Of a DNA stretch of 64,000 nt, positions 52,168-62,669 are shown one piece after another. The stretch lies in contig CAINOB010000125.1 of NCBI GenBank assembly GCA_903851365.1, positions 1 through 64,000 of the forward strand, read 5' to 3'. The DNA comes from an uncultured Bacteroidota bacterium. Lineage in GTDB: Bacteria; Bacteroidota; Bacteroidia; Bacteroidales; UBA12481. Positions within the stretch are counted from its first letter, which is position 1. Each line of letters begins with the position of its first letter. The position numbers were made by a program, and so were the translations under genes. Under the pieces are notes generated by a model. That model ran no database searches and was not told the origin of the DNA. It worked only from the letters and a program-made list of their open reading frames with translations.

Positions 52168-52217
52168 AGGTACCAATCAGAAAATTTCCACCAGGGAGCA
52201 AATGGCTATATATCAAG
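52164..52217 (+). pseudogene. 5' fragment of SpaB_C/thiopeptide-type biosynthesis gene, interrupted by element
   Basis: MKVPIRKFPPGSKWLYIK(IYV*) matches the N-terminus of thiopeptide-type bacteriocin biosynthesis proteins; hits a stop at 52227-52229 inside element sequence. Confidence 0.85.
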
Positions 52218-52223
52218 ATATAC
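52209..52223 (+). repeat. Left attachment site (attL) core region
   Basis: TATATCAAGATATAC; shares AAGAT core with right site. Confidence 0.75.
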
Positions 52224-52291
52224 GTATAAATTCCCCCTCTTCTAAAATTCAACTATTTTTAAGTCTGTAAATAGCTAAAATTTAAGCTATT

Positions 52292-52326
52292 AACCCTGAA
52301 TTCTTATAACGGATTCAGGGTTTTTT
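52292..52326. terminator. Intrinsic terminator just inside left end of element
   Basis: AACCCTGAAT ... ATTCAGGGTT TTTT, 10-bp perfect stem. Confidence 0.8.
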
Positions 52327-52397
52327 CGTTTCCTGTTTTGTCAGTTTTCCGAGCCTTCTGAACTTTGCAAGTAGTAATAACAATTTAAAATTACAAT

Positions 52398-52598
52398 ATG
52401 AAAAATTCAGAATTGGAAAAAGACAAACTAGAATGGGAGCAAGCCGAAAGATTGGTATTGCAACAAATCCGGAACATTAACCGAACTATGTTAGACCACG
52501 CGAAGTGGCAAGGTCCGGAAGAGTTCAAAAGGGTCAAAGCTGATGTTGAAGCGTTTCGCAAAGAATTTAAGGCTTTGCATCCAGAGGCTAAAATTTGA
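52398..52598 (+). CDS. Hypothetical small charged protein (element)
   Basis: 66 aa ORF, helical and charged; no recognised family. Confidence 0.55.
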   Translation: MKNSELEKDKLEWEQAERLVLQQIRNINRTMLDHAKWQGPEEFKRVKADVEAFRKEFKALHPEAKI

Positions 52599-52625
52599 TC
52601 TGTATTAACAAATAAAAATTATACC

Positions 52626-52988
52626 ATGAAACCAAAGAAAACTTCAAAGTTTGCGGAAATGGTTCGAAAGGGTATGTTGGAGAAAAGTCGGAAGACTTCC
52701 TTTCAGAGCAAAATCGAAAACGCAATCAATCAGGTAGAATCCATTGAGATTATTAAATGGTATCCGAAAGCGGGGGCAGTACCCCTAGCTAGGATTAAAA
52801 TTCAAGGTGAAGAATTATCGTTCATCAGGGAACGGCTCTGTCAACTCGACAATAGACGTTTTGGTGCGTCCTATGCCTTGCAGGTTAAATTTCTGACGGG
52901 TCTGACTTATCGGGATGAACTCATATGCCGGGGTTCCTTGTTTAATCGGTTTAAAGGGGCTTGCCTTCTTTACGGTCAGCTTAATTAG
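52626..52988 (+). CDS. Hypothetical protein (element)
   Basis: 120 aa ORF with downstream terminator hairpin. Confidence 0.55.
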   Translation: MKPKKTSKFAEMVRKGMLEKSRKTSFQSKIENAINQVESIEIIKWYPKAGAVPLARIKIQGEELSFIRERLCQLDNRRFGASYALQVKFLTGLTYRDELICRGSLFNRFKGACLLYGQLN

Positions 52989-52992
52989 GAAT

Positions 52993-59913: not shown

Positions 59914-59944
59914 TAATTCTTATTCAATCTAAGAGTAAATCAAA

Positions 59945-60739
59945 ATGAAAAAAGCACTCTTGATACTAATTGCGATATTATCCGCTTCGATTGCTTTCGG
60001 ACAAGTGAAAAGTAAAACCACTAACACCATATACTTGTATCGAAAGGCTGATTACAATACCATCCAATATCTTGTTCCGGAAGGCAGTCGATTGGATTTA
60101 ATTGCAAATCAGGGTGAATTTTGGGAAGTTTCATATCAGGGAAAAGTTCGGTACATGTCCCAAGATTTTAAGAAGGACGTTATTCCGGTTGATTCGATAC
60201 CTCCACCTAAAACTATCGAACCCAGAATTTTCCCGCTTCCAATGGATAATACAACCGGGCGAATCACTTTTACAGAAGTGGTAAAGGTAGATTCGACCAC
60301 CTCTAAAGAACAATTATATAGCCGTGCTAGGGAATGGTTCGCAAAGTCTTATAATTCATCGAAAGATGTCATCCAGATGGACGATAAGACTTCTGGAAAA
60401 ATAGTCGGGAAAGCTATATTCAAAACCTATTTAGAGAGTATAATTGGACCCTATACAAGTGGTAATATCGGATATACAATATCTGTGATAGTTAAAGATG
60501 GACGGTATAAGTATGAGATTACCGACTTTGATCATCAAGGACTTTCCGAGTATAGTTCATTTACCCATAGCACTTTTACTAGAATAGAACCCGGACCAAT
60601 TGAGCGATTTTTAGGTGATACTGAAAAAGCAAAAGATCAATGGGTCAAGCAAATTAATGATAATATAAAACCATTGATCGAGAGTTTAAAGATGGCAATG
60701 ATTATCCCTTCGTTAATTAAAAGCAAGGACGACTGGTAA
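59945..60739 (+). CDS. Secreted SH3-like + DUF4468-like protein
   Basis: Signal peptide; SH3-like segment; GRITFTEVVKVDSTTSKEQLYSRAREWFAKSYNSSKDVIQMDDKTSGKIVGKAIF. Confidence 0.65.
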   Translation: MKKALLILIAILSASIAFGQVKSKTTNTIYLYRKADYNTIQYLVPEGSRLDLIANQGEFWEVSYQGKVRYMSQDFKKDVIPVDSIPPPKTIEPRIFPLPMDNTTGRITFTEVVKVDSTTSKEQLYSRAREWFAKSYNSSKDVIQMDDKTSGKIVGKAIFKTYLESIIGPYTSGNIGYTISVIVKDGRYKYEITDFDHQGLSEYSSFTHSTFTRIEPGPIERFLGDTEKAKDQWVKQINDNIKPLIESLKMAMIIPSLIKSKDDW

Positions 60740-60777
60740 ATATGAAACCAACCAATGATAATTTGTTTCGACCGGGA

Positions 60778-60798
60778 GGGAGCTGTAAGGCTCCCTTC
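60778..60798 (+). terminator. Intrinsic terminator-like hairpin
   Basis: GGGAGC TGTAAG GCTCCC TT. Confidence 0.6.
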
Positions 60799-60839
60799 AT
60801 CATTTCAAATAAGTAACTTTATTCTTAAAATCCTAATCA

Positions 60840-62630
60840 ATGGATAAAATAGAATCCGACAATACCTCTCAAATTGCTAAATTTGATAGGATGAAACCCA
60901 AGATAATAACCGCATACAGTTACGTCCGTTTCAGTTCAAAGAAGCAGGAAGAAGGTCATAGTCTGGAACGTCAGTCCGAAATGGCTGATAAGTGGATTAC
61001 CTTCAAGAACGACGAGAAGAAGAATACAGATGGAGTAAGCTTTGTTTTGGATACCAAAGAAAATATGTTAGATTTAGGTGTATCCGGCTTCCGCGGTAAG
61101 AACCTAACAGAGGGTGCGCTATCCACCTTTATAGAAGGTGTACGAATTGGTAAAATTACGCGAGGGAGTTACCTGTTGATCGAGAACATTGATCGTTTCT
61201 CACGTGCAGTTCCATTAAAAGTAATACGCTACCTCACGGACATTGTAGAAGCAGGTATCTCCATCGTTACTTTGGACGATTGGGAGGAGTACACCGAAGA
61301 GAATATAAATGACCAGAAGTTTGAATCTTTATCTGGTGAGATACGAAGGGCACATAAAGAAAGTAAACGAAAAAGCGATTTGATTAGAAAAGCCAGAGCT
61401 AAAAATCGACAAGACGTTCTGGATGGCAAACGGATATTTTCGAAGAAGTGTCCATGTTGGCTAGAGTATATTAAAGAATCAAATAGCTTCCGAGAAAGAC
61501 CTCTGATGGTAAAGGCTGTTAGATATATGTTTGAGAATTGTAAAGATGGACATGGACCGGATCGGATTGCCACGGCACTCAATAAAATGCCACCTGATAA
61601 AATGGGCAGACCTGAAAAAAGCATTCCCAAACCCGGAAGCACTTATTTACGCAACAAGGATGGAATTTGGACAGCTTCAACCATTCGTAGGACACTAAGA
61701 AATAGAGCAGTACTTGGGGAATACCAGATGAAGAGTTACGGCCAAAATGATGGACCGCCGAAGAAAGGATATTATGACCCAATTATTAGTGAGAATCTGT
61801 TTTTAGAGGTGCAAGCTATACTGGGAAAAAATACCAATGATTACATAGCTAGGGGTGGTGGTCAAAAGGGGTACGCGAGTAATTTATTTGTCCATATTGC
61901 TAAATGCGGGATTTGCGGAAGTAGTTTAAACATTCTCAATGGAGGTCATAATAAAAACGGCAGAAAATTGCAAGACTATTTAAGATGCAAACGTATAGAA
62001 CTCAAATTAAGTGACCCCCCATGTGAATCCCGACGTTACAATTACCGTGAAGTTGAGAACATTGTTTTAGATCATCTTGAAGATATTGACTGGCGTAAAC
62101 TTGTTCCTGACGATACTTACATAGCCAGTCGTAGATTGGAGTTAATGGAAGAAATTGCCGCCAATGAATTATCAAGTAAAGATAAGTTCCAGGAGATTAT
62201 AAACCTCACTAACATAGCTGCAATAACTAAAGATGAACGTAATCAGCTGCGTTATGATGCTATGATTACTAAGATCAATGACGAACTGGATACGCTGAAC
62301 GAGGAATACAAAGCCAAGTTAAAAGAGCTGGAAAGCCTTAATACCGAAGCAGATGATTTGAAGGAAAATTTAACGAAGGCCAAGCAATTTAGAAAACTGT
62401 TAGCTGAGGCGAATCCGGAGGATGTTTTAGAAATGAGGTTCCGGCTAATGATGCAGATAAGAAAGCTTGTAAAGTCTATTAAAATCTGGCCGGTAACGGG
62501 GGATAAAAAGCCTATTCAAAATAGTGATCCGGGATTTTCAAAGTCGATTCATAGTACGACCATCGCCATGTTACAGATTCGTTTTTACACCCGAATGCCT
62601 ATCTCATTGATACTGAATAATGAAGGGTAA
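60840..62630 (+). CDS. Large serine recombinase (integrase)
   Basis: 596 aa; resolvase domain YSYVRFSSKKQEEGHSLERQSEMA, LLIENIDRFSRAVPLKVIRYL; Recombinase domain; zinc ribbon CGICGSSLNIL...LRCKR...CESRRYNY; C-terminal coiled coil. Confidence 0.93.
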   Translation: MDKIESDNTSQIAKFDRMKPKIITAYSYVRFSSKKQEEGHSLERQSEMADKWITFKNDEKKNTDGVSFVLDTKENMLDLGVSGFRGKNLTEGALSTFIEGVRIGKITRGSYLLIENIDRFSRAVPLKVIRYLTDIVEAGISIVTLDDWEEYTEENINDQKFESLSGEIRRAHKESKRKSDLIRKARAKNRQDVLDGKRIFSKKCPCWLEYIKESNSFRERPLMVKAVRYMFENCKDGHGPDRIATALNKMPPDKMGRPEKSIPKPGSTYLRNKDGIWTASTIRRTLRNRAVLGEYQMKSYGQNDGPPKKGYYDPIISENLFLEVQAILGKNTNDYIARGGGQKGYASNLFVHIAKCGICGSSLNILNGGHNKNGRKLQDYLRCKRIELKLSDPPCESRRYNYREVENIVLDHLEDIDWRKLVPDDTYIASRRLELMEEIAANELSSKDKFQEIINLTNIAAITKDERNQLRYDAMITKINDELDTLNEEYKAKLKELESLNTEADDLKENLTKAKQFRKLLAEANPEDVLEMRFRLMMQIRKLVKSIKIWPVTGDKKPIQNSDPGFSKSIHSTTIAMLQIRFYTRMPISLILNNEG

Positions 62631-62654
62631 TATATATAAGAGCGAATTTAGACG

Positions 62655-62669
62655 TATATAAAGATTTAT
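62655..62669 (+). repeat. Right attachment site (attR) core region
   Basis: TATATAAAGATTTAT; imperfect direct repeat of the left site. Confidence 0.75.

Follow-up and report, generated by a model that had tools for sequence, protein, structure and literature searches.

A mobile element in a Bacteroidota lanthipeptide dehydratase gene whose joined ends form a near-perfect dyad, the probable attP of its own large serine recombinase

Positions 52216-62661 of the window (the whole 64,000-nucleotide stretch analysed, from an uncultured Bacteroidota bacterium; features are given on its forward, or +, strand) constitute a 10.4-kb mobile element that, with a probability of roughly 0.94, was integrated by the large serine recombinase (LSR) encoded at its own right end and whose joined ends form an attP dyad around a central AA. 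Gene content, too, points to a Bacteroidota as the probable host. Large serine recombinases use dyad att sites with a 2-bp central core, and the preliminary description of this DNA had interpreted the two element ends as such an attP. That interpretation is supported by an intact LSR gene beside the right junction, by the empty site in five congeners, and by the corresponding geometry in nine of nine related elements.

Symmetry of the joined element ends

The right end of the element reads GAATTTAGACGTATAT (62644-62659), followed by AAAG (62660-62663) and then AT, while the left end (52209-52233) reads TATATC, AAG, AT and ATACGTATAAATTC. Joining the two ends gives GAATTTAGACGTATAT-AAAG-ATATACGTATAAATTC, with one arm of the dyad contributed by the left end (half-site P', 52216-52233) and the other by the right end (half-site P, 62644-62661). 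The letters and coordinates of the 36-bp near-palindrome previously described from the joined ends at 52209-62669 are exact, and the pairing of the arms, when recomputed, is again 15/16, a level reached in 0 of 20,000 dinucleotide shuffles of both ends with the centre and loop size left free (14/16 was reached at a frequency of 1.5e-4). The dyad axis lies between the two A's of 52215-52216 and 62661-62662, the AA common to both junctions, just where it had been placed: in-register symmetry is 15/16 at this centre and at most 7/16 at all other centres within +/-14 bp. The arms do lie at opposite ends of the element as claimed, and a search of all 5.23 Mb of the genome for the arm, with at most one mismatch allowed, finds only these two ends. 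The dyad observation is correct and far beyond chance. In the window attP, symmetry can be followed clearly as far as position 18, and further out the matches are scattered. In nine related elements (discussed below), position-by-position symmetry extends from about position 3 to position 22 and then falls to chance level. Given symmetry out to approximately position 22 on both sides in these relatives, a functional attP of ~44-50 bp is probable, and the 36 bp would represent its well-conserved inner part.

The interrupted host gene and the crossover

The element interrupts a Lant_dehydr_C gene (thiopeptide-type bacteriocin biosynthesis; dehydratase C-terminal family) that overlaps the end of its upstream partner, a host gene encoding a lantibiotic dehydratase N-terminal protein (49945-52167; PF04738, 4e-96). 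The 5' fragment of the interrupted gene, MKVPIRKFPPGSKWLYIKI, is located at 52164-52219 and the 3' remainder at 62666-63479 (the PF14028 match starts at position 30 of a 255-position profile, that to TIGR03891 at position 28 of 263), where the called ORF begins at TTG 62721. When the flanks are joined, the frame of the 5' fragment continues into 62666 and MKVPIRKFPPGSKWLYIKIYGGAQALEDW is restored in frame. The gene is uninterrupted at exactly the junction point in five congeners, and these homologues independently confirm the junction placement for which the dyad had been offered as support.

The junctions carry a direct repeat, AAGAT, at both element ends. Directly left of this repeat stands a C (52214), a base shared with four of the five congeners, whereas the element's A at 62660 disagrees, which places the crossover to the right of 52214 and inside AAGAT; within these five bases, the dyad selects AA. 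On this placement, attL (52205-52233) consists of host half-site B (GGCTATATATC), the core AA (52215-52216) and element half-site P' (GATATACGTATAAATTC), and attR (62644-62675) consists of element half-site P, the core AA (62661-62662) and host half-site B'. In the reconstructed attB, GGCTATATATCA-AGATTTATGG, local symmetry peaks at the same AA (7/10, tied with one other centre); the location of this peak favours the serine-integrase reading, and the weakness of the symmetry is a point against it.

Precise excision would bring the two gene fragments back into one reading frame, and only a single copy of the Lant_dehydr_C gene was detected in the genome, so the element can also be read as a reversible genetic switch, in which regulated excision would restore the split dehydratase gene in frame and turn lanthipeptide (bacteriocin) tailoring back on. 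Such a switch would be comparable to the comK, sigK and fdxN elements, the last of which is a gene-interrupting element removed by a serine recombinase, XisF. The likeness to fdxN and XisF consists in the in-frame restoration of the interrupted gene that excision would bring about; nothing in the window points to programmed or conditional excision, and the switch is considered improbable.

The integrase

By domain and residue criteria, the 596-aa product of 60840-62630 is identified as a large serine recombinase, and it is the proposed integrase of the element; its stop codon lies 31 bp before the right core. All three domains (resolvase catalytic PF00239, Recombinase PF07508 and zinc ribbon PF13408) score above curated cut-offs, the protein matches the phrog_95 integrase family at 2e-50, and both the catalytic residues (R30, S32, Q36, D118, R119, S121 and R122) and the zinc residues (C356, C359, C383 and C395) show no variation in an alignment that includes eight relatives (A1). 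An NCBIfam match to XisF is weak and far below the cut-off. The LSR is single-copy in the genome, and direct searches found no close relative in viral or genome collections, nor among 60 relatives, and at most weak partial matches in 395 genomes of the class. No PDB relative is detectable by sequence, and the best relative found is 34% identical. As no close relative was found, the attP assigned to this integrase stands without copy-to-copy comparison, which is a further point against the reading. Only a family profile was successful in finding LSR relatives: 85,462 species genomes gave 80 loci and viral contigs another 80. A tree places the window LSR among related LSRs, many of them comM-targeting.

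Contents of the element

In addition to the LSR, the element encodes an HTH protein (53264-53692), an AAA_25 ATPase, a small serine recombinase, a TPR protein, a secreted protein and several unknown proteins. The ATPase (55381-56868; PF13481, DnaB-RepA-like), which has distant phage and plasmid matches, is the probable replication helicase of the element. The intergenic region 3' of its gene (56866-56983) contains two copies of the 24-nt TAGATAGTATAGACGGTATAGATA, 36 nt apart, plus inverted copies; the repeats appear iteron-like and are a candidate replication origin. A perfect 11-bp inverted repeat at 57745-57769, CCTTTATACGC-TTC-GCGTATAAAGG, is found within a 233-aa ORF and is possibly a recombinase or regulator site. 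The TPR lipoprotein-like protein and the secreted protein, encoded between the two recombinase genes (59377-60739), have matches in the phage families phrog_7590 and phrog_4002, whose function is unknown, and are probable cargo. Just inside the left end lies a strong intrinsic terminator (52292-52322; 12-bp stem plus T run, folding z = -5.5) that would block host operon transcription from entering the element and that, in the circle, would come after the integrase and attP. Relatives of the element's 289-aa and 233-aa unknown proteins also occur together with a related LSR on a 9.1-kb contig binned as Dojkabacteria (L142), which represents either a wide-range element family or a binning error.

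attP symmetry in related elements

A fragment of comM/yifB (Mg-chelatase-like), mostly broken at one codon position, is present beside or around the LSR gene in 48 of the 160 related loci. When all related loci were scanned blindly for far-apart inverted arms that have a 2-bp core in common, the window site was recovered as a control, but most of the other results were chance hits and GC-rich or IS-like repeats; because these swamped the scan, a gene-guided reconstruction of comM elements was used instead. Nine elements were included, in each of which the two ends were within reach and the gene motif could be placed, and two others (L172 and L180) were omitted because the motif could not be placed automatically. 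The comM halves were aligned by reading frame alone, leaving symmetry unused, and the most symmetric centre of the joined ends was then sought. In all nine elements the best dyad centre falls exactly at the 2-bp core and is the unique best of 30 centres, so the general rule invoked in the preliminary description, namely that an attP forms a dyad around a 2-bp core, held in every related element of this set. The cores are CT, AT or TT (L188 has different first core bases at its two junctions, a point against the reading), and the joined ends match at 8-14 of 17 positions versus 15 of 17 in the window. In these nine relatives attP symmetry alone suffices to fix the 2-bp core with single-base precision, a help where direct repeats blur the crossover. 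Since the window target is Lant_dehydr_C and not the GHN-xxxx-GPPG site of comM, the window LSR is a relative of the comM/yifB-targeting class and not a member of that target class.

Two observations concern the comM elements themselves. A 7.2-kb element that splits comM in a Bacillota MAG (L109:670-7912) has the same gene order as the window element, with a small K-rich protein, a small serine recombinase, cargo, and the LSR at the end. In five loci (L132, L148, L154, L167 and L178), comM is apparently broken near codon 32 and not at the usual GHN-GPPG position, which suggests a second LSR target site within comM.

Unsplit dyads were observed close to related LSR genes. The nearest neighbour in the FastTree phylogeny (support 0.98, long branches), encoded on the 6.3-kb contig L173, is followed 50 bp after its stop codon by a contiguous dyad, GGTTAAATAGGCTGCAATGTCA-GGATGTTGTGGTCTATTTAACC, with outer arms similar to those of the comM relatives, and two viral contigs (L035 and L030) carry comparable but weaker dyads upstream of the LSR gene. 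Each of the three is reached by at most 1 in 300 shuffles of its own 320-bp neighbourhood. Because 310 stretches were tested and these dyads are some of the best found in them, they are only suggestive of the attP layout.

The related loci also bear on other explanations of the dyad. The small serine recombinase of the element (58407-59096, 229 aa) might itself, in place of the LSR, move the element, with the dyad as its site, given that serine recombinases use dyad sites. However, it contains the catalytic domain family only (PF00239), lacking the recombinase and zinc-ribbon domains of the LSR, and it lies mid-element, 3.5 kb from the end; in the relatives, the elements with similar att sites are defined by the LSR beside the junction, and a relative of the small recombinase is found near the LSR in just 15 of the 160 loci (the better ones being 38-50% identical). 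The protein probably serves the element as a resolvase or invertase and not as its integrase, and its having moved the element is very unlikely. Similarly, palindromes often bind dimeric regulators and the element encodes an HTH protein, so the dyad could serve chiefly as an operator or regulatory palindrome in the circle, with its position at the junction a secondary matter. The symmetry axis nevertheless coincides with the crossover here and in the nine relatives (ten elements in all), and little credence is given to regulation as the main role; a dual role, as attP and regulatory site, is conceivable. Least probable is a cut-and-paste (DDE) transposon, with the arms as its terminal inverted repeats and AAGAT as a 5-bp target-site duplication. 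The direct AAGAT repeat at the two ends and the inverted orientation of the arms would suit it, but arms measured from the AAGAT copies miss register by 3 bp (the left begins ATACGT, the right TATATACGT) and are in exact register around AA, which practically excludes such a transposon. The element proteins scanned include an LSR and gave no match to a DDE transposase family, and related LSR elements are built in the same way.

Proposed mechanism

The evidence supports the reading of the dyad as the binding-site symmetry of an LSR dimer, split by integration. Excision would join both ends into attP, with two inverted half-sites around the central AA and a predicted circle junction of GAATTTAGACGTATATAAAGATATACGTATAAATTC. 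An integrase dimer would occupy attP with one subunit per half-site and would synapse with a second dimer bound to attB, which reads GGCTATATATC-AA-GATTTATGG and lies in the Lant_dehydr_C gene. Cleavage of the two sites at AA would leave 2-bp overhangs, and swapping of the halves would produce attL and attR. Cutting by this integrase, AA as the exact crossover, and formation of the circle are the steps that we infer; no circular junction or excised copy of the element was seen. The mechanism is ordinary for large serine recombinases and requires nothing unexpected. The predicted attP/attB pair (AA core, dyad of at least 36 bp) is precise enough for oligonucleotide testing of an integrase that is at most 34% identical to the relatives found.

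Comparison with known systems

The attP sites of the Listeria phages A118 and LI are, as in the window element, pseudo-palindromes about a 2-bp core, with LSR-mediated insertion inside a protein gene (PMC3556126, PMC3783163). The A118 attP is an imperfect palindrome for which 22 bp on each side of the core are required experimentally (PMC3556126, PMC3783163), and the end of symmetry near position 22 in the relatives of the window element matches these 22 bp per side (PMC3556126). The core of A118 and LI is GG as opposed to AA in the window element, and by comparison with these phages the window dyad is unusually near perfect over positions 3-18. For the LI integrase, the zinc-ribbon motif in attB is shifted 5 bp inward (PMC3783163); a motif shifted in this manner is not recognisable by eye in the window attB, which counts against the serine-integrase reading. 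The comM/yifB gene is a favoured LSR target (PMC10083194, PMC9203015), with the comM class accounting for 12.4% of predicted site-specific integrases (PMC10083194), and sr1WO of phage WO belongs to an LSR element that targets this Mg-chelatase gene (PMC9203015). A literature search pairing serine recombinases with lantibiotic dehydratase genes gave a single paper, on actinobacterial conjugative elements. The comM/yifB elements among the related loci share with the window element the attP geometry and related LSRs, but differ from it in the target gene, in the arm sequences, and in an identity between the enzymes of at most 34%. What is specific to the window element is the combination of high symmetry, an AA core, an unusual target gene, and an enzyme distant from its relatives.
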